From a virus: DNA of 52,785 nucleotides. Every line of letters starts with the position of its first letter. Positions within the stretch are counted from its first letter, which is position 1. Of this stretch, positions 39,647 to 52,453 are shown one piece after another. The translations under genes were made by a program, and so were the position numbers. The stretch lies in the IMG/VR virus record IMGVR_UViG_3300042291_002130, positions 1 through 52,785 of that record; one strand, given 5' to 3'. The notes beneath the pieces were generated by a model, which searched no databases, was not told the DNA's origin, and saw only the letters and a program-made list of their open reading frames with translations.

Positions 39647-40357
39647 ATGAAAAATATATTTATATTACCAACAGACCAACCAAGTAGATTGAGATTTTTT
39701 TGCGGTAGATTAGAGTTAATGAGATTAGTACCTAAAAAATCTGATATAATTTTTCAACACATCTATATCACATCTGATGAAGAGATTAAAGATGGAGATT
39801 GGATGATTAGAGGTAATGAACAACCAACATTAGTTACTCCTAATTTCTTTTGGGATTTTGGGGTTAGATATTATAAAATCATCCTAACAACAGACCCAAC
39901 TCTAATTGCAGATGGTGTACAAGCTATTGATGATGAGTTCTTAGAATGGTTTGTAAAGAATCCTACTTGTGATTTTGTTGAAGTTGATAGAGACGAAAGA
40001 GAAGTTGGAAATCACTTAGGTGGAATTGCTACTGAATATGGTTATTACAAAATCATCATACCAGAAGAAGAACCTAAAAAAGAAACATTAGAAGAAGCTG
40101 CTGAAAAGTATGCTAATAAAGAATTAAATAATGAAGTAACTTCAAAAGTTGGAAATTTCTATGGGTTTAGTAGTTCATTTATGGAAGGTGCTAAATGGCA
40201 ATCTGAAAAACTGTATAATGAAGAAGATGTCAGAGAATTACTTATGAAAGCTTTAACACATAATGACCATAATCTTTGTGGTTCATTGGTTACAGTAGAA
40301 GGTGAAATAAGAACTGCAAATTTTGGAGTTTGGTTTGAAGAAAATAAAAAGAAATAG
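39647..40357 (+). CDS. ETLEEAAE-family fusion protein, paralogue 3
   Basis: A 236-residue protein with two parts. The N-terminal 140 residues are beta-rich (FILPTDQPSRLRFFCGRLELMRLV; IIFQHIYITSDEEIKDGDWM; YYKIILTTDPTLI) resembling phage-encoded conserved domains found elsewhere in Bacteroidota phages. The C-terminal part, KKETLEEAAEKYANKE... FMEGAKWQSEKLYNEEDVRELL, is the same short module as in 39029 and 40359. A fusion of a larger domain with the repeat module. Confidence 0.55.
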   Translation: MKNIFILPTDQPSRLRFFCGRLELMRLVPKKSDIIFQHIYITSDEEIKDGDWMIRGNEQPTLVTPNFFWDFGVRYYKIILTTDPTLIADGVQAIDDEFLEWFVKNPTCDFVEVDRDEREVGNHLGGIATEYGYYKIIIPEEEPKKETLEEAAEKYANKELNNEVTSKVGNFYGFSSSFMEGAKWQSEKLYNEEDVRELLMKALTHNDHNLCGSLVTVEGEIRTANFGVWFEENKKK

Positions 40358-40358
40358 C

Positions 40359-40568
40359 ATGGAAAAAGAAACATTAGACGAAGCTGCTGAACGACATGAC
40401 TCAGATAGAGATTCATTTATATCTGGTGCTAATTGGCAAGCCCAAAGAATGTACAGTAGGCAAGATATAATCGACTTTGTGTACTTCATTAATAGTAGAC
40501 ACTTCAATAGGTATACAGTAGATACCGATGAAGTTGATTTATTTATTGAACAATTTAAAAAAGGATAA
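40359..40568 (+). CDS. ETLEEAAE-family small protein, paralogue 4
   Basis: A 69-residue protein, MEKETLDEAAERHDSDRDSFISGANWQAQRMYSRQDIIDFV..., identical in plan to the module at the C-terminus of the preceding gene. The start at 40359 (AATAGCATG) is one base after the preceding stop. ATG 40323 would lie inside that gene. Probably produced by duplication. Confidence 0.55.
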   Translation: MEKETLDEAAERHDSDRDSFISGANWQAQRMYSRQDIIDFVYFINSRHFNRYTVDTDEVDLFIEQFKKG

Positions 40569-40588
40569 ATTTTTAGTAAGTGGTATTT

Positions 40589-40705
40589 AGTCAGGTGGCG
40601 GAATGGAGTGGGGTGTCCTCGCTCGTTGGTAGACGCACATATCCATACAGGGATGACACAGTACTGTATTACTGTGTCTTACAAGTTCGAATCTTGTCCT
40701 GACTA
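40589..40705 (+). tRNA. Degenerate tRNA-like element A with D-loop and variable-arm expansions
   Basis: Acceptor AGTCAGG (40589-40595) pairs with CCTGACT (40698-40704), discriminator A; T-arm ACAAG-TTCGAAT-CTTGT is intact. The D-arm is leucine-like (GCGGAATGG ... TAGACGC), but a 23-base segment sits in the D-loop at 40607-40629 compared with element C. A 9-bp stem (40655-40663 with 40670-40678) replaces a normal variable arm. No canonical anticodon stem of five pairs plus seven-base loop can be formed: TATCC/GGATG gives a six-base loop. Probably not a decoding tRNA. Confidence 0.5.
40607..40629 (+). repeat. 23-base insertion in D-loop of tRNA-like element A
   Basis: Relative to element C (GCGGAATGGTAGACGC) the segment AGTGGGGTGTCCTCGCTCGTTGG is extra; it is flanked by TGG on both sides (AATGG and GTTGG), suggesting insertion with duplication of three bases. 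Confidence 0.4.
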
Positions 40706-40725
40706 CAAAAATTAAGTAGAGAAAA

Positions 40726-40923
40726 ATGAAGTTATTAAAGGTTGAAGAGTGGAATTATCATATCATATACATAAATGACAATGAAAATTACCAGGTATAT
40801 CGAAGAATAGACCAAACCCGTTGGGAAAAGTACCATAAGAATCAATGGAGACCGATTACTGACTACTCAGCATTAGAAAAACTATTTACCCAAAGGGATA
40901 CCACAAGAGACCAGGTAAAATAA
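40726..40923 (+). CDS. Small protein between tRNA-like elements
   Basis: A 65-residue, Trp/Tyr-rich and Arg/Gln-rich protein (YRRIDQTRWEKYHKNQWRP). It lies between tRNA-like elements A and B. ATG follows a short AT-rich leader. Real coding is plausible because it is the only intact frame here. No family recognised. Confidence 0.4.
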   Translation: MKLLKVEEWNYHIIYINDNENYQVYRRIDQTRWEKYHKNQWRPITDYSALEKLFTQRDTTRDQVK

Positions 40924-41023
40924 TCTGATTATGGACCATCACCCTACCTATTGGGGTTCACCGGCCACTCTACTTGATCCCCAAACTAGAAAAAATTGAA
41001 CCCTAAATAGACAACTAGTCTCG

Positions 41024-41037
41024 GGACTACGGAGTCC
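41024..41037 (+). repeat. Hairpin repeat 1, GGACTACGGAGTCC
   Basis: Perfect 5-bp stem (GGACT/AGTCC) with ACGG loop. First of eleven copies of the ACTACGGAGT core between 41.0 and 52.8 kb. Confidence 0.85.
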
Positions 41038-41102
41038 AGCGTTAGACTCACACTTAAAATATAAACAAGTAATCCTAGAGACTTTTTATTGTCTAAAATC
41101 TT

Positions 41103-41112
41103 TAGTATAATA
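41103..41112 (+). promoter_or_regulatory. Middle-type promoter TAGTATAATA
   Basis: AATCTTTAGTATAATAGTTT about 20 bases before tRNA-like element B. Confidence 0.55.
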
Positions 41113-41132
41113 GTTTTATAAATGATAACTTT

Positions 41133-41208
41133 AGTCAGGTGAATGGTAATTGGTAACCGAAACCGTCCAGGTGATGTTGAGATGCAGGTTCGAATCCTGT
41201 CCTGACTA
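41133..41208 (+). tRNA. Degenerate tRNA-like element B
   Basis: 76 bases, normal tRNA length. Same acceptor AGTCAGG/CCTGACT and discriminator A as A and C; T-arm GCAGG-TTCGAAT-CCTGT. A D-arm of the form TGGT-AATTGGTA-ACCG is possible but is displaced by two bases. The region 41159-41182 (AACCGTCCAGGTGATGTTGAG) forms no five-pair anticodon stem; the only stems are CGTC/GATG or ACC/GGT. A decoding anticodon cannot be assigned. Confidence 0.5.
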
Positions 41209-41233
41209 CTAACTTAAAATAAAAATAAAAATT

Positions 41234-41506
41234 ATGAAAAAATTTGAAGACTTAGAGTTTGAAAAAATTGAAAACGATACATTCAAAACCGGTGTGACTA
41301 GTAGAATGGTGTTTGAAAATGGGTATGGAGTATCTGTCGTTTCGCACACATATTCATATGGTGGTAAGGAAGGTTTATATGAAGTTGCGGTATTAGGTAA
41401 AGATGGAGACTTAACTTATGATACACCAGTAACAAATGACGTAATTGGATATTTAGAACCAGTAGAAGTTACTGATATTATGAAACAAGTTCAAGAGTTA
41501 AAATAA
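41234..41506 (+). CDS. Small protein between tRNA-like elements
   Basis: A 90-residue protein (MKKFEDLEFEKIENDTFKTGVTSRMVFENGYGVSVV...), beta-rich, with ETLE-like acidic ends and a clean AAAATTATG start. It lies between elements B and C. Likely real; family unknown. Confidence 0.55.
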   Translation: MKKFEDLEFEKIENDTFKTGVTSRMVFENGYGVSVVSHTYSYGGKEGLYEVAVLGKDGDLTYDTPVTNDVIGYLEPVEVTDIMKQVQELK

Positions 41507-41510
41507 CATC

Positions 41511-41596
41511 AGTCAGGTGGCGGAATGGTAGACGCTATACTTAAGCAGTTGAAGCTGGGTAATTCAACGATACAGGTTCGAATCCTGTCCTGACTA
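41511..41596 (+). tRNA. tRNA-Leu-like element C
   Basis: 86 bases, right size for tRNA-Leu. Acceptor AGTCAGG/CCTGACT, leucine-like D-arm GCG-GAATGGTAGA-CGC, T-arm ACAGG-TTCGAAT-CCTGT. The region TATACTTAAGCAGTTGAAGC would offer anticodon TAA (CTTAAGC loop) or AAG (TTAAGCA loop), both leucine, but the anticodon stem has only two or three pairs; a stronger 6-bp stem GTTGAA/TTCAAC forms a variable arm instead. Best of the three, yet still aberrant. Confidence 0.55.
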
Positions 41597-41615
41597 CTCT
41601 AATATCGAGAGAAAA

Positions 41616-41882
41616 ATGATAAACCTAGAAGAGATCAAGGAGATCCGAGCCTACACCAGTGGTATTGTTGAAATGGGCTCAGTAACTATTATTATCAATA
41701 ACCGGGAATGGCAGTTTGATATAGAGGAATGGGCAGTACACGGCAACTTGGAATTTCGGGTCTACTTAGCTAGATGGCAAGACTCTAAAGACCTAGCACT
41801 AGAATTAGAAGAAGGTAGAGTAGTAGACAACCACTTTTGCAGATTTATCCAAGATGAATATTACAGGATTACAGCCAAATAA
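41616..41882 (+). CDS. Small protein after tRNA-like cluster
   Basis: An 88-residue acidic protein (MINLEEIKEIRAYTSGIVEMGSVTIIINNREWQFDIEEW...) with mixed alpha/beta layout. It follows tRNA-like element C by 20 bases. No family recognised. Confidence 0.5.
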   Translation: MINLEEIKEIRAYTSGIVEMGSVTIIINNREWQFDIEEWAVHGNLEFRVYLARWQDSKDLALELEEGRVVDNHFCRFIQDEYYRITAK

Positions 41883-41898
41883 TCACTAGTCTATACCG

Positions 41899-41912
41899 GG
41901 ACTACGGAGTCC
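41899..41912 (+). repeat. Hairpin repeat 2, GGACTACGGAGTCC
   Basis: Perfect stem as in repeat 1; it begins the first copy of the duplicated non-coding cassette. Confidence 0.85.
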
Positions 41913-42046
41913 AGCTACTAATACTACTATACTAAATAACTAGAGATAAAGATAAGAGAAAAGATCTCTAGATAGAAGAGACCCCAATAGAGATACGCAA
42001 TAACCAGGAACGGAGATCCTAGAGACCCCAACCAACCAGTCAGCTA
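41899..42046 (+). repeat. Duplicated non-coding cassette, copy 1
   Basis: About 150 bases starting with GGACTACGGAGTCCAGCTAC, then AAGATAAGAGA, AGATCTCTAGATAG, GAGACCCCAAYAGAGATRC, ACCAGGAAC and GAGATCCTAGAGACCCCAA. The same order occurs at 43197-43348 with interspersed substitutions. No open frame; it lies before the ART-like gene's 3' end. Confidence 0.65.
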
Positions 42047-42082
42047 TACATCAGCCGTGCATCAGCCGTACATCAGCCCATG
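42045..42082. repeat. 11-base tandem repeat at the 3' end of the ART-like gene
   Basis: On the minus strand GCTGATGTACG, GCTGATGCACG, GCTGATGTATA and GCTGAC follow each other. The first copies encode the last residues ADVRLMHG and the stop; the later copies are just downstream. Repeat number changes would shift the frame and change the C-terminus. Confidence 0.65.
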
Positions 42083-42692
42083 CCCTAAACCCATCAATAT
42101 CTGCTCTCGACCCAAGTATATGTATGTCCTTTGGATCAAATACCGCTAACTCTACCCGGTCTCTACGATTTGCTTTCAAATGACTAAGATCGACTTCAAT
42201 GCCGCCTCCTTGTTCTAAACTCTTCTTGACAGAATCAAGTTCTCCCTCGTCTTTTAGTTCATTTGGATAACCCAATATTGAATCATATTGACTCATATCA
42301 AAGTGCTGCTTAAGTTTTGCAACGCTCTGAGTAGTCAAACCGGTCTTTTTAAGTATTTCAGCAGCGTTCTCCCTGTTAATTATTAGAGGATTTTTTACGT
42401 TTACTTTAGCAAGTAGTGTTCTTGTTTTAAGAAGTTTTTCAATAAACTTGGGAAGATTGCTCTGCACATCGTAAAAAGAAAAGTAGGCACCTCCTAAATA
42501 GCTCAGTCTAAACTCATCAAACTTTTTAGCGCTTGTTTTGTGAAACATGACCTGTTTTATCCTACTTTCTGGAAATACTGTTTCAAGATATTCCAAATAA
42601 TCTTGATCAGTGCCTATTTCTCGAAGGATATCATCAATTTCTTCTAACTTTATGTGATTTTCATTAATAAATTCATTAAAGCTAACTAACAT
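42051..42692 (-). CDS. Leader-tagged ADP-ribosyltransferase-like protein (ART-PolyVal type)
   Basis: A 213-residue protein. Leader MLVSFNEFINEN at 1-12. Downstream, VMFHKTSAKKFDEFRLSYLGGAYFSF at 48-73 corresponds to the FHGTxxxFxxF...GxYF segment of polyvalent-protein ADP-ribosyltransferases (His51 in the NAD pocket), AKVNVKNPLIIN at 95-106 is the following strand, YDSIL at 136-140 and VELAVFDPKDIHIL at 180-193 complete the fold; the Glu in this last strand fits the catalytic position. T4 packages and injects the ADP-ribosyltransferase Alt, which modifies host RNA polymerase; this looks like an unrelated-sequence counterpart. Late promoter upstream. Confidence 0.7.
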   Translation of the reverse strand: MLVSFNEFINENHIKLEEIDDILREIGTDQDYLEYLETVFPESRIKQVMFHKTSAKKFDEFRLSYLGGAYFSFYDVQSNLPKFIEKLLKTRTLLAKVNVKNPLIINRENAAEILKKTGLTTQSVAKLKQHFDMSQYDSILGYPNELKDEGELDSVKKSLEQGGGIEVDLSHLKANRRDRVELAVFDPKDIHILGSRADIDGFRAWADVRLMHG

Positions 42693-42708
42693 GTTTTCTC
42701 TTTTTTAG

Positions 42709-42717
42709 TTATTTATT
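42709..42717 (-). promoter_or_regulatory. Late promoter AATAAATAA
   Basis: Minus-strand AGAATAAATAACTAAAAA before the ART-like gene start at 42692. Confidence 0.65.
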
Positions 42718-42726
42718 CTAGTCACG

Positions 42727-42740
42727 GGACTACGGAATCC
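42727..42740 (+). repeat. Hairpin repeat 3, GGACTACGGAATCC
   Basis: One base departs from the family (AGTCC to AATCC), breaking one pair of the stem. Followed by the terminator at 42759. Confidence 0.75.
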
Positions 42741-42758
42741 AGCTCTAGCTATACTAAA

Positions 42759-42786
42759 AGAGTCTCTACTATTGGGCAGAGACTCT
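42759..42786 (-). terminator. Terminator after the 111-residue leader gene
   Basis: AGAGTCTCT (42759-42767) pairs with AGAGACTCT (42778-42786); on the minus strand it is followed by TTTTAG. It ends the transcript of the gene at 42800. Confidence 0.8.
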
Positions 42787-42799
42787 ATTATAATTAGTA

Positions 42800-43135
42800 T
42801 TAGTTAAACTGAACTCTAGCAGTTCCTAATTGTATTTTGTTAGCCCACTTCTTAACTTCAGCTTTAGATCCTGTAAAAGAAACCTCGAACTCAGCATCAT
42901 ATGGTTCATCGTATTTTGGAGTACTGCCTCTTCTTCCCCAACCAGTAAGAGCAGGTTTGCCTACTAATTTTAATCCTTCCGGAAAACCTATTCTATCAAA
43001 GTCTTCTTTAAGAGCTTTAGCTGCTTCTGATTTACTCATTTGATCAGCCCAAGTCCAGTCAAACTCTAATTCAATAGTAGCTTTTCCAAGGGTCTCTTTG
43101 CTTTCATTAAGCCATTCAGTAAATTGTTTAATCAT
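42800..43135 (-). CDS. Leader-tagged late protein
   Basis: A 111-residue protein beginning MIKQFTEWLNESKETLG, a clear leader (FTEWLNES). The remainder is alpha/beta (KATIELEFDWTWADQMSKSEAAKALKEDFDRIG, then FEVSFTGSKAEVKKWANKIQLG), a small ferredoxin-like arrangement. It has two middle promoters and one late promoter upstream. Function unknown; likely packaged. Confidence 0.6.
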   Translation of the reverse strand: MIKQFTEWLNESKETLGKATIELEFDWTWADQMSKSEAAKALKEDFDRIGFPEGLKLVGKPALTGWGRRGSTPKYDEPYDAEFEVSFTGSKAEVKKWANKIQLGTARVQFN

Positions 43136-43154
43136 CTTCTAAAAATTTTTTATT

Positions 43155-43163
43155 TTATTTATT
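43155..43163 (-). promoter_or_regulatory. Late promoter AATAAATAA
   Basis: Minus-strand AATAAATAAATAAAATAAAA before the start at 43135. It overlaps a string of AATAAATA repeats, so the exact site is uncertain. Confidence 0.45.
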
Positions 43164-43173
43164 TATTATACTA
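43164..43173 (-). promoter_or_regulatory. Middle-type promoter TAGTATAATA, proximal copy
   Basis: Minus-strand TAGTATAATAAATAAATA, about 29 bases before the start at 43135; the second copy lies 18 bases further upstream. Confidence 0.6.
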
Positions 43174-43181
43174 TATTTATT

Positions 43182-43191
43182 TATTATACTA
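43182..43191 (-). promoter_or_regulatory. Middle-type promoter TAGTATAATA, distal copy
   Basis: Minus-strand GTTGTAGTATAATAAATAAA; together with the copy at 43164 it forms an exact tandem of TAGTATAATAAATAAATA. Confidence 0.6.
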
Positions 43192-43196
43192 CAACA

Positions 43197-43210
43197 GGAC
43201 TACAGAGTCC
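43197..43210 (+). repeat. Hairpin repeat 4, GGACTACAGAGTCC
   Basis: The loop is ACAG rather than ACGG; stem intact. It starts the second cassette copy. Confidence 0.75.
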
Positions 43211-43348
43211 AGCTACCCAGTATCAGTATACCAGAGAATCAAGATAAAAAGAAATAGGTGAAGAGTCTCTAAATAGACGAGACCCCAACAGAGATGCCTA
43301 ATCACCAGGAACAGAGATCCTAGAGACCCCAATCTACTACCTGACTAC
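43197..43348 (+). repeat. Duplicated non-coding cassette, copy 2
   Basis: Second copy, with the same order of blocks (hairpin, AGATAAA, GAGTCTCTAAATAGACGAG, ACCCCAACAGAGATGCC, ACCAGGAACAGAGATCCTAG). Substitutions are spread throughout, so the duplication is not recent or both are under different constraint. Confidence 0.6.
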
Positions 43349-43434
43349 CCATGCCCCTGATCTAGAACAGTCTTTACCCCTGACCCAGAACTACTTTTAA
43401 ATGCGCCGTCATGTCGCTCCGGCCACCTACGTTT

Positions 43435-43444
43435 ACTACGGAGT
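43435..43444 (+). repeat. Hairpin repeat 5, ACTACGGAGT hybrid flanks
   Basis: Reads GTTTACTACGGAGTCCCG: the left flank is of the TTTACT type while the right flank is of the GTCC type, so only a 3-bp stem forms. A hybrid of the two arm types. Confidence 0.8.
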
Positions 43445-43544
43445 CCCGAACGGGAACTTCTCGAGGGGCTCAACTTAGGGGTTCAACTTGCCAATTGGGT
43501 ATCACACCGGTGCCACCAACTTTCAAATGAACCCCTAATCTCGG

Positions 43545-43553
43545 GATAAATAA
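43545..43553 (+). promoter_or_regulatory. Late promoter GATAAATAA
   Basis: CTCGGGATAAATAATTAAAA, 16 bases before ATG 43570 of the IS607-type recombinase gene. It places this mobile-element-type gene under late control. Confidence 0.7.
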
Positions 43554-43569
43554 TTAAAAAAGTTAAACT

Positions 43570-44259
43570 ATGTGGAGACCAGAGGCACTTGAAGTTCTTG
43601 GATGCAGTATCAGCACATTCAAGAGATATGTAAAAGCTGGCAAGATCAGGTATGATCAAGTCGGGAACCGTTACTTATATTGGGACGATGACGTCTATAA
43701 GCTTAAAGGAAAGCACCTAATCAGGGGTCACTGGTCAGTAGCTTATTGCAGAGTAGCCGGGACTACGGAGTCCGACCGGAGGCTTATGCTCCAACAGCAG
43801 CAGCTAGTCAGGAACTGGTGTGCACAGCGAGGTATCTCTCTAGATAAGTTGTACGATGACTGGGCTCCCGCTACAGACTTCTCGCTAGACTGGAGACCCG
43901 CTCTGCATGACCTGATCCAGGACGTGATCAAAAAGAGGGTGTCAGTAATTATAGTAGAGACTACTGACAGACTGGCCCGAGTTGGCTGGGAGCTCTTTCC
44001 TGCCTGGTTCCAATATTATGGGGTAGAGGTAGTAGTAATCAACTCGGCCATCACCGTGCCAGAATATCAGCTAGAACAGGAAAAGGATCTCACGAATCTC
44101 TTACTTAAAGCTGGTGTAGATCGACTAGACAAGCTTGGTGCTGACTCCTTGCCTAAACCTAAGAAGAGGGAGAAGCGTGAACATCCTGGCAAGATAACTC
44201 CAAACTGGGAAGGAAAACCAGAGGAGCCAACTAAACGGGATCTTTCAGATCTAATGTAA
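43570..44259 (+). CDS. IS607-type serine recombinase, catalytic serine missing
   Basis: A 229-residue TnpA of the IS607 type. An N-terminal MerR-like helix-turn-helix (residues 5-45, EALEVLGCSISTFKRYVKAGKIR...) precedes a serine-resolvase domain with YCRVAG at 59-64, VIIVETTDRLARVGWELF at 126-143, YYGVEVVVIN. The conserved RVS has become RVA (Ala63, GCC at 43756), and the next codons (Gly64-Thr-Thr-Glu-Ser68) are encoded by the hairpin repeat at 43760. A serine five residues on (Ser68) could or could not replace it. No tnpB partner follows. Late promoter upstream. Possibly a DNA-binding remnant. Confidence 0.8.
   Translation: MWRPEALEVLGCSISTFKRYVKAGKIRYDQVGNRYLYWDDDVYKLKGKHLIRGHWSVAYCRVAGTTESDRRLMLQQQQLVRNWCAQRGISLDKLYDDWAPATDFSLDWRPALHDLIQDVIKKRVSVIIVETTDRLARVGWELFPAWFQYYGVEVVVINSAITVPEYQLEQEKDLTNLLLKAGVDRLDKLGADSLPKPKKREKREHPGKITPNWEGKPEEPTKRDLSDLM
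43760..43773 (+). repeat. Hairpin repeat 6 inside the recombinase active site
   Basis: GGACTACGGAGTCC lies in frame across the codons for Gly64, Thr65, Thr66/67, Glu67, Ser68, immediately after Ala63 that replaces the catalytic serine. Confidence 0.85.
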
Positions 44260-44295
44260 TTCTTCAGTTCTTTAGCAGAGACACTCGCCAGCCAA

Positions 44296-44304
44296 GATAA
44301 ATAA
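44296..44304 (+). promoter_or_regulatory. Late promoter GATAAATAA with near-zero leader
   Basis: AAGATAAATAAACAATATG, 5 bases before ATG 44310. Confidence 0.65.
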
Positions 44305-44309
44305 ACAAT

Positions 44310-44729
44310 ATGAAATCATTTATAGAATTTATAGCAGAGAGTCGGGCATTTGACCTAGACCACTTGCCTAGACTAGGGGAGATTCTTAGCTCGGCTGAAA
44401 GGAACATGCGGGCTCCATACACTTGGGCATTTGTAAGATTTATAGCAGATCAACTAAGGCTGAGCCAAACCGGAGATATTGTAGAGATTGGACCTAGCCA
44501 CTTTAGATTTAGAGACATGCAGGAGATCTACGCCAAGGATCCTCTTTCTTGGGGTCAAAAATCATACAATAATTCATGGTTTAAATATTTTACCGCAAAG
44601 ATAAGATATGTCTGCGAGATGAGTGAAGGCTTAAGATCGGAGGCTATAACTTTCTGGCTCTCTACAGAGGAATATGAAAAGGTATTTGGTATGCCCCAGG
44701 AAATAGATACTATATTCGCTGATTTTTAA
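44310..44729 (+). CDS. Leader-tagged late protein, unknown
   Basis: A 139-residue protein with the cleanest leader of all, MKSFIEFIAESRAFD (compare MKTYQEFIAEA of T4). The rest is helical with Trp/Tyr residues (KSYNNSWFKYFTAKIRYVCEMSEGL) and a C-terminal acidic helix. It is 50 bases after the recombinase gene with its own late promoter. Function unknown; packaged protein is the inference. Confidence 0.65.
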   Translation: MKSFIEFIAESRAFDLDHLPRLGEILSSAERNMRAPYTWAFVRFIADQLRLSQTGDIVEIGPSHFRFRDMQEIYAKDPLSWGQKSYNNSWFKYFTAKIRYVCEMSEGLRSEAITFWLSTEEYEKVFGMPQEIDTIFADF

Positions 44730-44950
44730 ATAGGTCCTCCTAAGGGACTCTCCCTTTCTGGATATTAGAATATACTAGTGAGATGAGCTAGCCTCGCCAT
44801 AGGAAAGAGTACCTCTCTAGATTGGGCTCCGGATTCCATGGCATACTAGGCACCCAAACGTCCCAGCGGGCAGGGAAATCCAGAGACTCGGCTCGCTCCC
44901 GTGTACAGGCGGGTGTCACGACGACGCGCGATAGCAGAGACTCGGTAGGG

Positions 44951-44964
44951 TTACTACGGAGTAA
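44951..44964 (+). repeat. Hairpin repeat 7, TTACTACGGAGTAA
   Basis: Arms changed together to TTACT/AGTAA with ACGG loop; with neighbouring GGG and ACCC the stem extends to about 8 pairs with one bulge. Confidence 0.85.
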
Positions 44965-44980
44965 ACCCCTTAACCCAAAA

Positions 44981-45004
44981 AATGGGAACCTACTGGCTCC
45001 CATT
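44981..45004 (-). terminator. Terminator of the 391-residue protein gene
   Basis: Minus strand AATGGGAGCC-AGTA-GGTTCCCATT, 10 bp stem with one G-U pair, followed by TTTTTT. Confidence 0.85.
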
Positions 45005-45024
45005 CCTAGTCGTCAAACTACCTC

Positions 45025-46200
45025 TTATAATTGCGCGTACTGAGCGAATTGAAGGTCGTAACCTGCATTTACGCCTTTAGCGAAAAGTTCTCCTGCTTGT
45101 GCTTTCAATTCCCACTGATCGGCTAATTCAATTCCTGAATTGTTTGAACCTAGGTAGGTAAGTGAATTTACAACATCCCATATTGACATTCCTGTCTTGA
45201 TAAAACTTTTTTGTTTTTCATTTAACTTGTATGGGTCTTGGCCTTTTTGCATAATGCGGGCCATTGTATCTCTGTGTCCATCAAAGTAGTTACGTTCGAT
45301 AGTATCAATAAAGTTCTTTTTATATTGTGGGTCAGACTCTCTTACTTTACGTTGAGCCAACATCATAGCACTGTCAACTTCAAATAAGCTTGCCTTAGTG
45401 CCAACAGCTGTTGCTAGGGATCCGGCGAATGCAGCAGGTACGAAGCCAGACTTTTTCATAGTATCTACTTTATTTAAGAAGATTCGGATATCGTCGCCAC
45501 TAGTTCCACCTAGTTTAAACTTTTCTTCAAAGTGTAGGTCACGGTTAGAACCAATAGATCCGCTACCGAAACTTACTCTTAATCCATTAGAGCATACTAG
45601 GCGGGTATTATAAGTCTCAATAATAGTATCTTTACTCGACTGGGTAATTGAGAACCCAAATTTAAAGAACTCGTCTTTGCCTGCTCCTGGGAAACCTACC
45701 TCTTCTGAGTTTAGGAAGTTAATGGATGAGGTTCCGCCATTTGGACTGTGGTCAACCGTCTCTATAATTAGGGAAGGGTGTTCGTTCATGATTTTACTAG
45801 TCATATCGAATAGTGAATCATTAGTCAATCGTCGGTATCTCTTAGGATCGCAGATATCAATTACTTCTCGAGTTTGGGTATTAGCAATCAGCAAGACATC
45901 CTTTGCTCCAATACCTCGACGGTATTCGTTTAGTGCATTCATAAATGCTGCAGCCACTTTACCATTGTCGTTCTTAATAAACTCTCTAGTCAAGGAAGCA
46001 TTCATCTTCAGCATGCCAGCAAGTTTCAAGAAAAAGTTAGGGCCAACCTTTACTAGTGTTCCGCCGATTTCAAGTTCATTACGGCTGAACGAAGTGTCAG
46101 TTAATTTAAGTGCAGAAATTGGCACCTGTTTTGTTGCGTGCTCATTAGCTACCATTACTTCTCTGATTGCATCGAACTGGGAATTTGTTACTTCTTTCAT
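45025..46200 (-). CDS. DUF932-like conserved protein
   Basis: A 391-residue protein. Parts such as KVGPNFFLKLAGMLKMNASLTREFIKNDNGKVAAAFMNALNEYRRGIG at about 50-97 and TYNTRLVCSNGLRVSFG resemble the DUF932 family common in phages and plasmids (function unknown, sometimes linked with anti-restriction, not proven). The C-terminus is helical (YLGSNNSGIELADQWELKAQAGELF). A promoter-like AATAGTATTATAATATT lies upstream and a terminator follows. Probably a highly expressed early/middle gene. Confidence 0.55.
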   Translation of the reverse strand: MKEVTNSQFDAIREVMVANEHATKQVPISALKLTDTSFSRNELEIGGTLVKVGPNFFLKLAGMLKMNASLTREFIKNDNGKVAAAFMNALNEYRRGIGAKDVLLIANTQTREVIDICDPKRYRRLTNDSLFDMTSKIMNEHPSLIIETVDHSPNGGTSSINFLNSEEVGFPGAGKDEFFKFGFSITQSSKDTIIETYNTRLVCSNGLRVSFGSGSIGSNRDLHFEEKFKLGGTSGDDIRIFLNKVDTMKKSGFVPAAFAGSLATAVGTKASLFEVDSAMMLAQRKVRESDPQYKKNFIDTIERNYFDGHRDTMARIMQKGQDPYKLNEKQKSFIKTGMSIWDVVNSLTYLGSNNSGIELADQWELKAQAGELFAKGVNAGYDLQFAQYAQL

Positions 46201-46265
46201 AATTAAATTTTTTTTAGGTTAGTTTGACTAATATTATAATACTATTTTGGTTTTAACTTTTAAAA

Positions 46266-46295
46266 TTTGGGGAGCATTATTTTTAACTCCCCAAA
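46266..46295 (-). terminator. Terminator after RecA-fold ATPase gene
   Basis: TTTGGGGAG (46266-46274) pairs with CTCCCCAAA (46287-46295), loop of 12; minus strand continues with TTTTAAAAG. It lies between the ATPase gene end (46303) and the next gene. Confidence 0.8.
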
Positions 46296-46302
46296 GATAT
46301 TT

Positions 46303-47508
46303 TTATCGACCCATTGAGATAGCTACGTCTGTTCCTAAGTCATCGCTCTCGCCATTGATATAATCAATTATTTCAACCATCTCATCAGTTACCTCTTCTA
46401 CGGAGTGATCTTCTTCGACTGCTCGTGAACCGCCTAGGAAGATATTCTCAAACTCGCGAGTCAAGTCTTGTTGACGTAGGGTTTCAGTATTCTCAAAGCT
46501 TCTAATCTCTTCAGTCTCTTGGAATCGAGCAGTATCGTATACTACTGCACCAGTCTCGTCCAGCTTGTAGTAGAGTCTCTTGCCAGTGCCGCTACCTCCT
46601 CGTCTGTTCTTTGAGAACTCAATATAACGTTGGCCAGCCAAGTCGAAGCGTATCTCTAGCATGGCAGTAGTTGCGTGCTTAAGATAAGTAGAACCTACAT
46701 ACTGACCACCTTTAGTCATGTGTTGAATTGCCAAGACTGCGTTACCGCATTTCTCTGCAGCGTCTATCATCATGTTAGTTAACCAGCTTTCTGCTTTAGT
46801 TGACTTCCAGCCATGCACCTCTTTTAATTTTACTAAGACATCTTGGTAAGAATCTAATAGGATAATATCATGGTCGCCATTGAAACTCTTCTCTAAGACT
46901 TGGGATAATTGACCGTTCTTAACATAGTCCATTAGGAGTAGGGTAGGAACCTTGCCAATAGCTGGGGTCTTGCGGTAATAGAACATAATATCGTTACGTG
47001 TCATCTCGCTAGAAATGTAGAGTATCTTCGCCTCTGGATTTTGGTCTACGATAGAAGCTAAGAGATCTAGCATGACAGTTGACTTGCCGACGCCTGACTC
47101 TCCAATTACAATATTAACTGTTCCGCCATAGAGTCCACCACCTTCTTCGTGATCAGAAAAGAGATCGTCGATCTTCTTGCCTGCCTTGAATAATCCAAAG
47201 CTTGGGAATTCCATGTCCTCTACTCGGATAATATTAGGCTCGTCAGTTACTACGGAGTGACCTATGCGTGGCTCAGCAGGTGTCTCTACAACCGGCGTAC
47301 TTGCTACTGAACTTGCACCATGACCCTCTGCCTGAATCTTTTTGATTACTCCATTAAATAGTCCATAAGAGATATCTTCGTCTTTAGGCACCTTATCAAA
47401 TGCTGTGAATAGATCCAATACCTTAGCTCTTGGTACAACTCCTTCATGGGTATCGTTAAACCATTGACGAACTTCTTGCTCTTTCTTTCCTCCTTTAATC
47501 TCAATCAT
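46303..47508 (-). CDS. RecA-superfamily ATPase (RadA/DnaB-like)
   Basis: A 401-residue protein. An N-terminal charged helical part (1-65), a linker, then a RecA-fold ATPase: Walker A GESGVGKST at 136-144, IILLDSYQDVL (Walker B) at about 215-225, and KNRRGGSGTGKRLYYKL near 325 with arginine residues. It resembles DnaB/RadA/KaiC-type ATPases, so replicative helicase or recombination ATPase is possible. Flexible segments at about 66-92 and 355-380 both contain HSV encoded by the hairpin repeat. A middle promoter is upstream at 47543. Confidence 0.75.
   Translation of the reverse strand: MIEIKGGKKEQEVRQWFNDTHEGVVPRAKVLDLFTAFDKVPKDEDISYGLFNGVIKKIQAEGHGASSVASTPVVETPAEPRIGHSVVTDEPNIIRVEDMEFPSFGLFKAGKKIDDLFSDHEEGGGLYGGTVNIVIGESGVGKSTVMLDLLASIVDQNPEAKILYISSEMTRNDIMFYYRKTPAIGKVPTLLLMDYVKNGQLSQVLEKSFNGDHDIILLDSYQDVLVKLKEVHGWKSTKAESWLTNMMIDAAEKCGNAVLAIQHMTKGGQYVGSTYLKHATTAMLEIRFDLAGQRYIEFSKNRRGGSGTGKRLYYKLDETGAVVYDTARFQETEEIRSFENTETLRQQDLTREFENIFLGGSRAVEEDHSVEEVTDEMVEIIDYINGESDDLGTDVAISMGR
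46398..46406 (+). repeat. Hairpin repeat 8 within the ATPase gene (C-terminal linker)
   Basis: Reads CTTCTACGGAGTGATC; on the coding strand it encodes HSVEE in the segment before the C-terminal acidic tail. The first base of the core differs (T for A). Confidence 0.7.
47249..47258 (+). repeat. Hairpin repeat 9 within the ATPase gene (N-terminal linker)
   Basis: Reads GTTACTACGGAGTGAC, 6-bp stem with one G-T pair; on the coding strand it encodes GHSVVTD at about residues 83-89, in the flexible linker before the ATPase core. Confidence 0.8.
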
Positions 47509-47542
47509 AATTTCTAATTTTTTTAGGTTAGTTTGACTTAAT

Positions 47543-47552
47543 TATTATACTA
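47543..47552 (-). promoter_or_regulatory. Middle-type promoter TAGTATAATA
   Basis: Minus-strand TTTTTTAGTATAATAATTAAG, 35 bases before the ATPase start at 47508. Confidence 0.6.
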
Positions 47553-47567
47553 AAAAACTGTTGTACT

Positions 47568-48005
47568 TTAAAACTTATTACGACTTAATTCATGTAATCT
47601 TGTTAGTTCTTCAGCGGTTAAACTTTCGACTCCTCCTCTGTCACTGATAAGCTCTAACAACTCGTCTAGGTTAAGAGTACACTGCTCGTCTCCATACAGG
47701 TGGTCAAAGTCTGCATTTGCTTGAGCAAAAGCTGGAAACATCAGGTGGCATAGGTGTACGCCGGTGTCTCCAGCTGGGTCCCATACAATTACAGGTAGTG
47801 AGTCTCCATGCTCGTCAGCAACCTTTTTATAGAGGTCTACTATCTCGTCAGGTGTAAAGTCTGTTTTAATAATAGATATCACGCCAAATGGAGTACCGCA
47901 TCCTACACCTTTTTGGGAACGCCCGCTGATAGTCTGAATAATTGCGTATTCTTTTTGAGTTGGCATATTAGAACCAAAGCGAAAGATAACTAATTTCTTT
48001 TTCAT
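47568..48005 (-). CDS. Hypothetical protein (early)
   Basis: A 145-residue protein; alpha/beta with MKKKLVIFRFGSNMPTQKEYAIIQ at the start and a SQKGVGCGTPFGVISIIKT segment, then acidic helices. An early promoter lies just upstream. No family recognised. Confidence 0.55.
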   Translation of the reverse strand: MKKKLVIFRFGSNMPTQKEYAIIQTISGRSQKGVGCGTPFGVISIIKTDFTPDEIVDLYKKVADEHGDSLPVIVWDPAGDTGVHLCHLMFPAFAQANADFDHLYGDEQCTLNLDELLELISDRGGVESLTAEELTRLHELSRNKF

Positions 48006-48030
48006 AATCGTTTTGTTTTTAAGTTATATA

Positions 48031-48064
48031 GTAAATATAACCAATCACTATTAATCTTGACAAT
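48031..48064 (-). promoter_or_regulatory. Early promoter E1
   Basis: Plus-strand view GTAAATATAACC...CTTGACAATT; on the minus strand a TTG box, about 21 bases, then TATATTTAC. It serves the gene starting at 48005. A run of A (plus AAAATCTTTTT) and CCAGAGAC lie further upstream. Confidence 0.7.
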
Positions 48065-48122
48065 TGGGTGAAAATCTTTTTGCACAAAAGTCCAGAGACA
48101 CTTGGCCTGTCTGCATGAAAAA

Positions 48123-48146
48123 AGCCAGTCTCCTTAGAAACTGGCT
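48123..48146 (-). terminator. Terminator after 137-residue gene
   Basis: AGCCAGT (48123-48129) with ACTGGCT (48140-48146), and T-tract TTTTTT on the minus strand. Confidence 0.85.
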
Positions 48147-48172
48147 CGACTCGGAAAAGCAGCAACCTTAGT

Positions 48173-48586
48173 CTAAATTTTTATTTCATGGTTAATTTCT
48201 TTTGCTAATTCAAATGGAGATCCTCCGTGACTTGCTGCCCACCATCTCCCATCTAATCCAATCACATAACCGTACTCTTCATAGTCTGATTTAAAAAAGT
48301 CTTCGACACTGTTATCGATATGGAAGGTTAGGTCTTCTCCACGGTCTCTGTGATATGCGACAGTTACTCCACCTTGAGGAGACCCGAATGAGTGGGGTCC
48401 ATTTGGCTCTACCTGCTCGTCTAATGAAGCGAGATCTCCCAACTCCACCAAGGCTAGAGTCTTTGCTCTATCATAACACTCTAATAGGATCTTACCATTA
48501 TGTGAGACGTATCCATCAAAGTGACAGTAAACTGATTTTACTGTGCCGTCTTCTAATTCGATTCCAATTCTGCTTCTAGTTGCCAT
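48173..48586 (-). CDS. Conserved phage protein of unknown function
   Basis: A 137-residue protein beginning MATRSRIGIELEDGTVKSVYCHFDGYVSHNGKILLE. The MATRSRIGxxxxDGTxxSxYCHxDGY signature is found in many phages and plasmids; role unknown. Mid-part GGVTVAYHRDRGEDLTFH and C-terminal YGYVIGLDGRWWAASHGG. Beta-rich, no membrane segment. A terminator follows. Confidence 0.7.
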   Translation of the reverse strand: MATRSRIGIELEDGTVKSVYCHFDGYVSHNGKILLECYDRAKTLALVELGDLASLDEQVEPNGPHSFGSPQGGVTVAYHRDRGEDLTFHIDNSVEDFFKSDYEEYGYVIGLDGRWWAASHGGSPFELAKEINHEIKI

Positions 48587-48597
48587 AGTATCTCTTT

Positions 48598-48792
48598 TTA
48601 TTGGTTAGGTAATTTCTTTTTTAAGGTTCTTAATCGAGCCTTTAATTTTTTAATCTCTAATTTACGAAAGTAAGGTCCGTGATTCCATGGTGTACATCCT
48701 TCAGGCTGTGCCCAGACACTAACTATTTTAGTCTTGTCGTTTTTAAGAAATTCAATTCTTTCTTCGATGGCTTTGATTTGTTCAAGTATCAT
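48598..48792 (-). CDS. Small basic coiled-coil protein
   Basis: A 64-residue protein with two basic helices (ILEQIKAIEERIEFLKNDKTKI and RKLEIKKLKARLRTLKKKL) around a Trp/Pro-rich loop. Helical hairpin likely; nucleic-acid binding possible. Early promoter E2 precedes it. Confidence 0.5.
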   Translation of the reverse strand: MILEQIKAIEERIEFLKNDKTKIVSVWAQPEGCTPWNHGPYFRKLEIKKLKARLRTLKKKLPNQ

Positions 48793-48815
48793 AGGTTATT
48801 GGGTTAAGTGCTTAA

Positions 48816-48849
48816 GTAAATATAACCATTATTCTTTAATCTTGACAAT
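48816..48849 (-). promoter_or_regulatory. Early promoter E2
   Basis: GTAAATATAACC...CTTGACAATC (plus-strand view), preceded on the minus strand by an A-rich AAAAAAATCTTTCAC box; upstream of the start at 48792. Confidence 0.7.
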
Positions 48850-49036
48850 CCTGTGAAAGATTTTTTTGCTTTTGATATTCTTCATGGCACTGTTCAAATT
48901 CTTCAGTTGTGAATACCTTTACTATACTTCCTCCTTCAATCGTTTTAAGACGCTCTCTTAATTGAACCGATTCTACTATTTCAAAGTGTCGGTCTCCTCT
49001 TGGTGAGATGATTAACACAATTCTGATTTCTTCCAT
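48836..49036 (-). CDS. Small hypothetical protein
   Basis: A 66-residue protein (MEEIRIVLIISPRGDRHFEIVESVQLRERLKTIE...), a ferredoxin-like beta-alpha-beta layout with a disordered end. Its 3' end overlaps early promoter E2 of the next gene. Early promoter E3 precedes it. Confidence 0.5.
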   Translation of the reverse strand: MEEIRIVLIISPRGDRHFEIVESVQLRERLKTIEGGSIVKVFTTEEFEQCHEEYQKQKNLSQDCQD

Positions 49037-49059
49037 GATTTGTATGTTTTAGGTTATAA

Positions 49060-49093
49060 GTAAATATAACCATTACTTTTTAATCTTGACAAT
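49060..49093 (-). promoter_or_regulatory. Early promoter E3
   Basis: GTAAATATAACC...CTTGACAATT (plus-strand view), before the gene starting at 49036. Confidence 0.7.
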
Positions 49094-49110
49094 TCTATTA
49101 AAACTATTTT

Positions 49111-49395
49111 TTAAAAACTTCCAGCACGTTCTACTGCAAATGTTAACTCTATTCCCCATGGAAACTTGTATGCTCTGAAACCACCAGTACCTGCGTTTGA
49201 ACTTGGCTCTTCACTCTCTATTACTGTGGCTAAACTGAATCTAGCAGTACCTCTTAATTCAAAGATAGTCGGTCTTCTGTACTCGTCAGAGGATTGCCAT
49301 TTCCAATCAACTTGATCCATGTGAGCTAACACCTTTTCAAAATCAAAGCGATCCATTATCTTGTCTCTCTGTTCGTATAATTCTTCTTTAGTCAT
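49111..49395 (-). CDS. Small hypothetical protein (early)
   Basis: A 94-residue protein with alpha/beta character (FEKVLAHMDQVDWKWQS, then FRAYKFPWGIELTFAVERAG). Early promoter E4 lies upstream. Acidic. No family recognised. Confidence 0.55.
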   Translation of the reverse strand: MTKEELYEQRDKIMDRFDFEKVLAHMDQVDWKWQSSDEYRRPTIFELRGTARFSLATVIESEEPSSNAGTGGFRAYKFPWGIELTFAVERAGSF

Positions 49396-49417
49396 AATAA
49401 GATATTTAAGTTATAAT

Positions 49418-49450
49418 ACAAATATAACCAACTCTTTTTAATCTTGACAA
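49418..49450 (-). promoter_or_regulatory. Early promoter E4
   Basis: ACAAATATAACC...CTTGACAA (plus-strand view); the GTAAATATA of other copies is replaced by ACAAATATA. Before the start at 49395. Confidence 0.65.
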
Positions 49451-49468
49451 TCTAGCTGGATAAAAAGT

Positions 49469-49651
49469 CTAGAGACCCTCGTCCTCGGTGATTGCGGATA
49501 TTGAATCCAATAAGGAGATAAGTTCGGCCCATACAAAGCGTTCAACGTCGGTCTCTGCCGTGCTCAACTCTTGTTGGTACATTTCTTTGCGGTTAGCTAC
49601 AAATTCAGAGACGCGCTCTAGCTTAGTTACACTTAAATCTTTTACTATCAT
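49469..49651 (-). CDS. Small helical protein
   Basis: A 60-residue, helical acidic protein (LERVSEFVANRKEMYQQELSTAETDVERFVW). It is one base after the previous gene. No family recognised. Confidence 0.45.
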   Translation of the reverse strand: MIVKDLSVTKLERVSEFVANRKEMYQQELSTAETDVERFVWAELISLLDSISAITEDEGL

Positions 49652-49652
49652 A

Positions 49653-49883
49653 TTAATAATGTTTTACTTTTACAATGGTTGCCGCTTGCTGGCCACCTAC
49701 TTGTTTAATGGTATAAGCACCTTTTACTTTAATCCATTCTAATGTTTTGCGATACGTTGAGTCAGGTTTACTTATCTCTCCAAGAAAGAGAGCGATTTGA
49801 TATGCTTGTTTTACTGTATGACAAACGCCGAGTGTTTCTCTCAGCGCTTGCTCCCATTCAATATCGGGTTCTTTATTACTCAT
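49653..49883 (-). CDS. Small hypothetical protein
   Basis: A 76-residue protein (MSNKEPDIEWEQALRETLGVCHTVKQAYQIALFLGE...), helical then basic beta. The alternative start 49910 overlaps the upstream gene by 17 bases; 49883 falls just behind its stop. No family recognised. Confidence 0.45.
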   Translation of the reverse strand: MSNKEPDIEWEQALRETLGVCHTVKQAYQIALFLGEISKPDSTYRKTLEWIKVKGAYTIKQVGGQQAATIVKVKHY

Positions 49884-49893
49884 TACAAGATAC

Positions 49894-50151
49894 TTATCCC
49901 TTCTTTCCATCCTCTATCTTTTTTTGAAGGTCGAGAATAAACGCGCAATCTTCGTAGTCTTCCTTCTCTTCTAAATGGTTTAAGATTACTTTCATTGCTG
50001 TTAATTTATTCTCTATTGGTGCATCATCTTCTACTGCAAAGTCAGGAAAAGTTTTTAGAGATGTCAAGACTAGATCCATAAATTTATCGTAGTCTCGATC
50101 CCGAACTTCCATCAACATTTGAATAAACTCTTGCTCGCTAAAATCATCCAT
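49894..50151 (-). CDS. Small acidic helical protein
   Basis: An 85-residue, strongly acidic protein (MDDFSEQEFIQMLMEVRDRDYDKFMDLVLTSLKTF...), helical throughout. Overlaps the next gene by 8 bases. Could be an inhibitor-type or DNA-mimic protein; only composition supports this. Confidence 0.5.
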   Translation of the reverse strand: MDDFSEQEFIQMLMEVRDRDYDKFMDLVLTSLKTFPDFAVEDDAPIENKLTAMKVILNHLEEKEDYEDCAFILDLQKKIEDGKKG

Positions 50152-50473
50152 TCTTTTCTAGGTTTATTGAGTTATGTGCATCTACTATAATCAAGCAAGC
50201 GGTATCCTCGCCAAATGTCTCCATCAATTGATTGACTAACATATGGTATCCGCTATTAACAAGCTCTATTCGTAGGTCAGTTAACTCTTCATCATTAACG
50301 GTCAGCACAGATTTGCCGTGGTCGTCGATGAGGTCCCTCATAACATCTCTATAAATAGCTGTTGCATGAAAATATTGCACTAATTGTTTTGGAGATACTT
50401 TCCCAATCTCCTTTACCTGGTCAACAGTTAAAACTACCTCATCTTCACTGTTAAATATAATTCCCTGTTTCAT
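50144..50473 (-). CDS. Hypothetical protein
   Basis: A 109-residue acidic alpha/beta protein (EDEVVLTVDQVKEIGKVSPKQLVQYFHATAIY...). It lies 22 bases downstream of the sigma factor gene; those bases are almost wholly the hairpin repeat. Probably co-transcribed with sigma. No family recognised. Confidence 0.5.
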   Translation of the reverse strand: MKQGIIFNSEDEVVLTVDQVKEIGKVSPKQLVQYFHATAIYRDVMRDLIDDHGKSVLTVNDEELTDLRIELVNSGYHMLVNQLMETFGEDTACLIIVDAHNSINLEKNG

Positions 50474-50477
50474 ATCG

Positions 50478-50491
50478 TTACTACGGAGTAA
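50478..50491 (+). repeat. Hairpin repeat 10, TTACTACGGAGTAA
   Basis: Perfect 5-bp stem; occupies nearly all of the 21-base gap between the sigma factor stop (50495) and the next start (50473). Confidence 0.85.
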
Positions 50492-50494
50492 AAT

Positions 50495-51214
50495 TTATAA
50501 TACTTCTAATTTCATTTTTTGAATCGATGCCTTTACGATTTGAGAAACTCGGACGTTAGTCATCTCGTATTTTTCTGCAATAATATCGGTTGGCATCTCA
50601 TAGTCTCGGCCTATTCCAAAGTAATCCATAATAATTGCTCGGTCTCGGTCTTTAAGAAGGTTTAACGCACACTTAACTTTAAATCGGATTGAATCCATCT
50701 CTATATTGAACTCAACTTCTGATCCAGATTTTAAGACAATATCTCCAATGGTATTTCCACCTTCATCTCCAATTGGTGCATCGATGTCTACCTTACGCGG
50801 AATCTCAATGTCTTCGCCTTTCATCTTTGCTTTATAGATAGCATACTCTTGATTGTGAGGCAGTCTTACAATACGACCAGTCTTAGCAACAGACTCGTTT
50901 AGTTTTTTACGAATCCACAACTGAGCATAGTTAATGAATCGCTGACCGTCTCTAGGTTTGAAATTAAGAGCTGCTTCAAGTAGACCCATGTTTCCTTCTT
51001 GGATTAAGTCATCGATTGGCACACCTTGTCCAATGTGGCGATTTGCAAGCTTAACGACAAACTTTAAGTTTGCGCTTACTAATTTTTCTACTGCTTTAGC
51101 GTCTCCCTCTTGGATTGCTACTACTAATTGTTTCTCTTCGCCGATAGTAAGGGGCGCGTTCTTTTGTATTGTTTTAAAATACTTAGGTAGGTTTTCTGAT
51201 GTTTCGAATTTCAT
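50495..51214 (-). CDS. RNA polymerase sigma-70 factor, compact
   Basis: A 239-residue sigma-70 family protein (RpoD-like group). Region 1.2 (LTIGEEKQLVVAIQEGD at about 21-37), region 2 with the core-binding and -10 recognition helices (LVSANLKFVVKLANRHIGQGVPIDDLIQEGNMGLLEA and INYAQLWIRKKL), region 3 (GRIVRLPHNQE) and region 4 with a helix-turn-helix (PTDIIAEKYEMTNVRVSQIVKASIQKMK). Region 1.1 and the non-conserved insert are missing. It can redirect host RNA polymerase to phage promoters, perhaps the TAGTATAATA set. Its own early promoter E5 is divergent in box sequence. Confidence 0.88.
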   Translation of the reverse strand: MKFETSENLPKYFKTIQKNAPLTIGEEKQLVVAIQEGDAKAVEKLVSANLKFVVKLANRHIGQGVPIDDLIQEGNMGLLEAALNFKPRDGQRFINYAQLWIRKKLNESVAKTGRIVRLPHNQEYAIYKAKMKGEDIEIPRKVDIDAPIGDEGGNTIGDIVLKSGSEVEFNIEMDSIRFKVKCALNLLKDRDRAIIMDYFGIGRDYEMPTDIIAEKYEMTNVRVSQIVKASIQKMKLEVL

Positions 51215-51241
51215 AAGTTCTATTTGTTTTTAAGTTATATA

Positions 51242-51275
51242 GTAAATATATCTATAAGTTTAATAAAAGTACAAT
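51242..51275 (-). promoter_or_regulatory. Early promoter E5 (sigma gene)
   Basis: GTAAATATATCT...AGTACAATCC (plus-strand view). Shares the TATATTTAC box; the -33 part is ATTGTAC rather than ATTGTCA, and the upstream GTTTTCACC/A-tract is the same. Confidence 0.7.
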
Positions 51276-51333
51276 CCTGGTGAAAACTTTTTTAAAATAA
51301 TTCCAGAGACTCCAAACCAGCAGACAAAGAAAA

Positions 51334-51349
51334 AGCGGATTGCTCCGCT
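51334..51349 (-). terminator. Terminator after the zinc-ribbon early gene
   Basis: AGCGGA/TCCGCT, loop TTGC, T-run on the minus strand; lies just downstream of the gene ending at 51356. Confidence 0.8.
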
Positions 51350-51355
51350 CTTTAC

Positions 51356-51568
51356 CTATTCTTCTTCATCTGAAGTACAGGTTATTAGCTTTCCGTGCTT
51401 GACGGCTTCCCAATATTCTGACTCTGTCATGGAGTATCCACCATTTAAATCTTTTTGTACACAGTCTGAGCAAGTAATTGCATCTGCATCGATGTCAACA
51501 TTACTAACTACTTCTCCACAACACTTGCATGCGAGATTTTTAAATCCTAATGTTCTCTTCTTACTCAT
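51356..51568 (-). CDS. Small zinc-ribbon protein
   Basis: A 70-residue protein with CKCCG at about 15-19 and CSDC at about 33-36, a four-cysteine zinc ribbon with acidic ends. Overlaps the next gene by 4 bases. Often seen among phage early genes; function unknown. Confidence 0.6.
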   Translation of the reverse strand: MSKKRTLGFKNLACKCCGEVVSNVDIDADAITCSDCVQKDLNGGYSMTESEYWEAVKHGKLITCTSDEEE

Positions 51569-51870: not shown

Positions 51871-51875
51871 TACTA

Positions 51876-51885: not shown

Positions 51886-51889
51886 TTGA

Positions 51890-52434: not shown

Positions 52435-52453
52435 AGCTTTTGTTTTTAAGTTC

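Follow-up and report, generated by a model that had tools for sequence, protein, structure and literature searches.

A serine-less IS607-TnpA-type protein of large T4-like phages and a decamer conserved as DNA in its former active-site loop

The regulator TldR descends from TnpB. The IS607 transposase TnpA recognises 9-bp motifs in direct repeat and keeps its active sites away from the DNA (PMC6188088). Stoperators are asymmetric sites whose orientation follows transcription (PMC9283540), and PeSLs are promoter-terminator cassettes of T4-like phages (Arbiol 2010 and Comeau 2014, as cited in PMC4503421). The analysis of a 52,785-nucleotide stretch of phage DNA (the window) revealed a gene coding for a domesticated IS607-TnpA-type protein that lacks the catalytic serine. 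Purifying selection maintains the protein across a clade of large T4-like phages, and its gene carries a decamer that is conserved as DNA, overriding the coding of the former active-site loop. That both hold together, the recombinase being dead and the repeat being a site at the DNA level, we consider very probable. The features of the gene are as follows.

43545-43553, + strand, T4-type late promoter motif GATAAATAA, ahead of the recombinase ATG by about 16 bp
43570-44259, + strand, catalytically dead IS607-TnpA-like protein of 229 aa (ORF; Pfam, phrog and structure matches)
43756-43758, + strand, codon 63, GCC (Ala), where IS607 TnpAs have their nucleophilic serine (alignment; A, P, G or D in orthologues)
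43759-43778, + strand, 20-nt block GGGACTACGGAGTCCGACCG, which contains the decamer and is identical in six orthologues

The protein consists of three parts, an N-terminal HTH, a serine-recombinase domain and an unusual charged C-terminal tail. Its match to Pfam Resolvase (1.6e-10) was above the cutoff, the match to HTH_17 was weak, and phrog_6620, a transposase family, was matched at 1.3e-18. The NCBIfam IS607 equivalog model scored the protein at 80.1 bits, below the cutoff of 110, while the ordinary TnpA of another phage contig, L034, scored 173.9. The AlphaFold model (mean pLDDT 71, about 85 across the HTH and the first half of the recombinase core) gave as best Foldseek matches the IS607 TnpA catalytic domains 3lhk, 6dgc and 3ilx; Pfam, AlphaFold and Foldseek thus indicated the IS607-TnpA architecture, a MerR-type HTH at the N-terminus followed by a serine-recombinase catalytic domain. 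The HTH, which an earlier note on this DNA took to be intact, is kept, and so are R61, D97, R109, R134 and R137 when the protein is aligned with four IS607 TnpAs. The late promoter proposed in the same note is present upstream as a T4-type motif, and motif matches similar to GATAAATAA were found ahead of the gene in 6/7 orthologues. The gene that follows is a 139-aa ORF with no transposase match, and hence no tnpB is adjacent.

Codon 63 had been read in the earlier note as GCC, followed by GGG ACT ACG GAG TCC (43759-43773), and this reading was confirmed, in frame within the 229-aa ORF. Alignment with the four IS607 TnpAs placed Ala63 in the nucleophile column. Across the seven orthologues this column holds A in the window and in contigs G001, G006 and G007, G in G005, P in G010 and D in G002, and serine in none (0/7). 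The SG motif after D97 is absent from all of them, PA or PS standing in its place, and DRL has become CRL in two. The loop is two residues longer in all seven orthologues than in ordinary TnpAs. The orthologue of G002 (41% identical) has no internal repeat, and its loop has the same length with Asp at the place of the serine. The serine has thus been lost throughout the clade, whether or not the repeat is present.

The same orthologue contradicts the suggestion that the repeat was inserted and moved the serine by five residues. Nor did Ser68 prove acceptable as a displaced nucleophile. In the AlphaFold model beta strand 1 spans residues 55-62 and helix A residues 67-86, so that Ser68 lies in the first turn of helix A and not after the strand. 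A further possibility, that alignment would place another serine in the active site, found no support, no other serine being conserved in the loop. Homologues sharing the GTTES sequence with proven recombinase activity had been named as grounds for refutation; such homologues exist, all of them lack Ser63 and none is proven active. Searches of viral contigs with a single protein and with two sequences gave few relatives, and the wider family was obtained with a degenerate motif pattern and a six-sequence alignment. The pattern search found the GTTES segment also in an orthologue of 49% identity, and further scans added orthologues at 65, 70, 76 and 77% identity, plus the 41% one in G002; searches of prokaryote genomes gave no relatives. 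The dN/dS of the recombinase was about 0.1 (range 0.07-0.17, for the orthologue pairs where it was computable), indicating strong purifying selection. Such selection on a protein without the serine makes a dead but functional protein likely, which backs the idea of a catalytically dead enzyme put forward in the earlier note.

Comparison of six orthologues at the nucleotide level revealed that GGGACTACGGAGTCCGACCG is an identical run of 20 nt, the next longest identical run being 6 nt, and that the other synonymous sites are near saturation. Codons of invariant amino acids were identical in 7/8 cases within residues 62-70 vs 6/76 elsewhere (Fisher p = 2.8e-6; since the phages are related their counts are not independent, and this p-value and the one given below overstate the evidence). 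The degenerate search admitted synonymous variants, and the exact decamer was present in every match. In G001 the recombinase gene carries two extra decamers, which arose by substitution at aligned codons with the length unchanged.

The large T4-like phages that carry the dead recombinase form a poorly known clade. The portal of the window phage is T4-like and most similar to portals of very large uncultured phages. Genes at 42051-42692 (- strand), 42800-43135 (- strand) and 44310-44729 (+ strand) lie on either side of the recombinase gene and carry late promoter motifs; N-termini such as MKSFIEFIAES among them may resemble the capsid-targeting peptides of T4 internal head proteins. Two tRNAs lie at 41133-41208 and 41511-41596 (+ strand), both detected by Rfam and one by ARAGORN, and they were the only known RNA families that Rfam gave in 40000-52785. 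A third tRNA-like 3' end, a repeat, is seen at about 40682. A direct repeat of 72 nt, 86% identical, occupies 41965-42036 and 43266-43337 in non-coding stretches near the recombinase, and an 11-bp short tandem repeat lies at 42040-42078, at the 3' end of a 213-aa gene. Elsewhere in the window, 19121-20845 (+ strand) codes for a nicotinamide phosphoribosyltransferase (phrog_448, 2e-144).

Scans of the window with GGACTACGGAGTCC, allowing up to 3 mismatches, gave 13 matches vs 0.74 expected, and with its core ACTACGGAGT, allowing up to 1 mismatch, 12 matches vs 1.24 expected; matches so far above expectation indicate that the repeat is not due to chance. The copies in the window, with one associated terminator, are listed here.

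41026-41035, + strand, decamer, intergenic
41901-41910, + strand, decamer, intergenic
42729-42738, + strand, variant decamer ACTACGGAAT ahead of a leftward gene
43199-43208, + strand, variant decamer ACTACAGAGT at about -370 of the recombinase, in a similar place in most orthologues
43435-43444, + strand, decamer at -135 from the recombinase ATG, at about -124 to -144 in 7/7 orthologues, that of G010 being the TCTACGGAGT variant
43762-43771, + strand, decamer ACTACGGAGT in the recombinase gene, at +192 here and at +195 in five orthologues
44953-44962, + strand, decamer just past the intrinsic terminator of a leftward 391-aa gene
44977-45005, - strand, intrinsic terminator at the end of the leftward 391-aa gene, which transcription reaches just before the decamer
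46397-46406, + strand, variant decamer TCTACGGAGT in a leftward 401-aa P-loop ATPase gene (SVE)
47249-47258, + strand, decamer in the same ATPase gene (SVV), position kept in six phages
50480-50489, + strand, decamer separating the leftward sigma-factor gene from the one that follows
52755-52764, + strand, decamer upstream of a leftward early-type promoter

The repeat had been described as a hairpin; the invariant element is the decamer [A/T]CTACGGAGT, and the stem is not conserved. Pairing in the stem extension was 0.44 vs 0.36-0.40 for shuffled flanks, which is not clearly above them, and no compensated stem changes were found among the decamer copies, so it is the sequence that is conserved and not the hairpin. 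The commonest variant, TCTACGGAGT, breaks the outer pair, and the hairpin was rejected as a conserved object. In a count over eight distinct phage contigs 90 of the 91 exact decamers were on one strand, and the near-duplicate contigs G003, G008 and G011 agree with it; the contigs are metagenomic fragments with mechanical gene calls. Within the decamer fields the + strand holds 85 exact and 17 one-mismatch decamers, 12 of the latter being TCTACGGAGT, and the other strand no exact and a single one-mismatch decamer. The sole opposite exact decamer, at 25475-25484 of G010, lies in a small leftward ORF and may be due to chance; no link to a local gene flip was found. A scan of viral contigs with TTTACTACGGAGTAAA gave 50 stretches, mostly chance-looking single copies, and yielded G002-G004. 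Among the matches listed in a literature search for ACTACGGAGT, all of them unrelated studies on mammals or animal viruses, no name for the decamer was found.

Analysis of two longer contigs showed that the decamers of G008 (128.5 kb) and G002 (125 kb) are confined to one block of less than 30 kb in each. The block of G008 also holds leftward early-type promoters (TATATTTACT, minus strand), which, like the early and late promoters throughout, were assigned as motif matches. Over the fields of eight phages 87 copies of TATATTTACT were counted, with 0 on the opposite strand. The window has a family of early-type promoters at 48018-52740, on the minus strand and all leftward, of the approximate form TTGTCAAG ... 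GTTATATTTACTTATAA.

The decamers may be regarded as putative polar protein-binding sites that would act on leftward early transcription. Those behind terminators would reinforce the stops, those inside genes would act as down-regulators, and those at the junction with the late region would form a terminal barrier. The dead TnpA, made from its late promoter, might bind the decamers through its HTH, as IS607 TnpAs bind direct 9-bp repeats, and once bound could shut off or insulate the early genes and control its own locus in the manner of the L5 stoperators. That the dead TnpA is the reader is suggested by the clustering of sites at its gene, by the habit of IS607 TnpAs and by the analogy with stoperators. 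Between -600 and +300 of the recombinase 21 decamers were counted in 6.3 kb, a density of 3.33 per kb, compared with 0.61 per kb in the remainder (p = 7e-9), and the sites recur at about -133 in 7/7 phages, at about +195 in six and at about -370 in most. Also in keeping with the model are the loss of the serine with or without the repeat, the purifying selection, the DNA-level conservation of the internal site, the strict orientation and confinement of the decamers, their places behind terminators and in the ATPase linker, their origin by substitution in G001 and the late promoter motif. Binding of the decamer by the recombinase is a proposal drawn from sequence and analogy. The full model, in which a late-expressed dead TnpA reads a stoperator-like network of polar decamers, is one that we favour tentatively, at somewhat less than an even chance, because, of the parts measured, conservation is lowest in the recognition helix (residues 13-22), with a mean identity of 35% vs 63-70% in the recombinase core.

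The contrast between this variable helix and a decamer that does not change is the chief evidence against the recombinase as reader. It favours a reading in which the decamers are real elements of polar control of the early region and are read by something else (a phage protein, the phage sigma factor or RNA polymerase), the dead recombinase being present for other reasons and its gene merely including some of the field's final sites. Consistent with this, decamers occur at terminators, at stop codons and ahead of promoters, and further conserved genes share the decamer block. That the recombinase and the decamers occur together is not specific to them, since the neighbours (the 391-aa gene, the ATPase and the sigma factor) are shared too. 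In all six phages examined (6/6) the P-loop ATPase gene has a decamer in the same variable linker, and in five a second one in the tail. In the window this 401-aa ATPase (46303-47508, - strand) shows weak similarity to DnaB/UvsX, the linker decamer being read as SVV and the tail decamer as SVE. The strong clustering at the recombinase speaks against another reader, as do the conserved positions there, one of which is found also in the 41% identical orthologue. We regard such a reader as a serious possibility, and a doubtful one.

A hairpin with a T-tract, a predicted terminator, stands directly before the decamer in the leftward direction in 26/103 cases vs about 1% of random positions. Among decamers to which a leftward promoter could be assigned, about 30% have it at a distance of 30-100 bp downstream, compared with 10% for random positions. 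Some decamers precede an early-type -10 motif by 74-100 bp, others lie between a stop codon and the next start codon, and many have neither a terminator nor an early promoter beside them. In the window a decamer separates the stop codon of a phage sigma factor gene (phrog_351, 50495-51214, - strand) from the next start codon. The association with terminators and -10 motifs, together with a small-gene region that resembles a hyperplastic region, would suit decamers that are parts of PeSL-like promoter-terminator cassettes, serving as module boundaries that aid termination and as points of recombination, without a binding protein of their own. We consider this improbable: decamers also stand at fixed positions within genes and arise by substitution within codons, and conservation of only about 10 bp does not fit a recombining cassette.

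The chromosomal orientation of the decamers is strict whichever strand carries the containing gene, and the GC skew of the window switches sign near the start of the field. Both would fit a model in which the decamers served the polarity of replication or packaging (as a fork barrier, an ssDNA hairpin or an origin element) and not transcription. However, other long leftward blocks of G008 with similar skew have no decamers, and the field follows the early-type promoters, which makes a role of this kind very improbable. An integron-like cassette array, considered because the recombinase is near one end of a one-way array, was rejected as a live system since the enzyme is dead and the sites are fixed within genes.

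An active recombinase that attacks the decamer with a different hydroxyl, that of Ser68, Thr65 or Thr66, could draw on the retained fold and active-site arginines and on hydroxyl residues at 65-66 in 7/7 orthologues, but with A, G, P or D for the canonical serine, Ser68 in helix A of the model and aligned with Val in G002, and both the SG and, in two orthologues, the DRL motif altered, it is hardly credible. A selfish palindromic element inserted in frame, like the Rickettsia palindromic elements, would account for many copies, some in frame inside genes, and is just as hard to credit, because there is no change of length relative to the hairpin-less orthologue, the new copies of G001 arose by substitution, the orientation is strict and the hairpin pairing is not conserved. 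Insertion of the repeat was rejected on the equal loop length and the substitution origin; insertion of a Rickettsia element in frame lengthens the gene, whereas the recombinase loop is not lengthened here.

Returning to the dead TnpA as reader, the complete picture would be that of an IS607 TnpA turned phage regulator, which reads some 10-20 polar decamers as barriers to transcription in the early region, and whose own catalytic loop was overwritten by one decamer, the remains of the active site and the regulatory element sharing 20 nucleotides. We put this forward as possible and leaning towards doubtful. The locus clearly exemplifies a serine transposase that has given up catalysis and is maintained by selection in phages, accompanied by a strictly oriented network of sites in an early-type region. 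It also illustrates a DNA signal that takes precedence over the coding of an active-site loop. Should the protein read the decamers, it would be a regulator derived from IS607 TnpA, a counterpart to the nuclease-dead TnpB regulators, and the system would be a stoperator-like one beyond the mycobacteriophages.

Comparison with IS607 TnpA indicated that the N-terminal HTH and the IS607-fold serine-recombinase domain are shared, known members binding direct short motifs (PMC6188088). The protein described here differs in having no nucleophilic serine, no SG motif and no TnpB neighbour, and in scoring below the equivalog cutoff. The IS607 motifs are clustered and helically phased, whereas the decamers are mostly solitary, which counts against the protein as their reader, and spread over more than 20 kb and are not at transposon ends. 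The L034 contig (10001-11915) has an ordinary IS607-type TnpA (RVSS), followed by a 440-aa ORF that is probably TnpB, and has no decamers. TldR resembles the present protein as a transposon protein of the IS605/IS607 world that lost catalysis and was kept by phages, and it is a regulator; TldR is TnpB-derived and RNA-guided, while here it is a TnpA-type protein that lost catalysis. With the stoperators of cluster A mycobacteriophages (L5, the TipsytheTRex repressor) the decamers share the pattern of many short asymmetric sites in one orientation at promoters and in intergenic regions (PMC9283540). The decamer differs from them in its sequence, in its length of 10 bp and not 13, in the type of phage, in having a recombinase as putative reader and in being conserved also inside genes. 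An early-type promoter that follows a terminator and a short element, among the small genes of a T4-like phage, may be a trait that this locus has in common with PeSLs; here, in contrast, the decamer alone is conserved, and it occurs inside genes and in the surroundings of a dead recombinase too.
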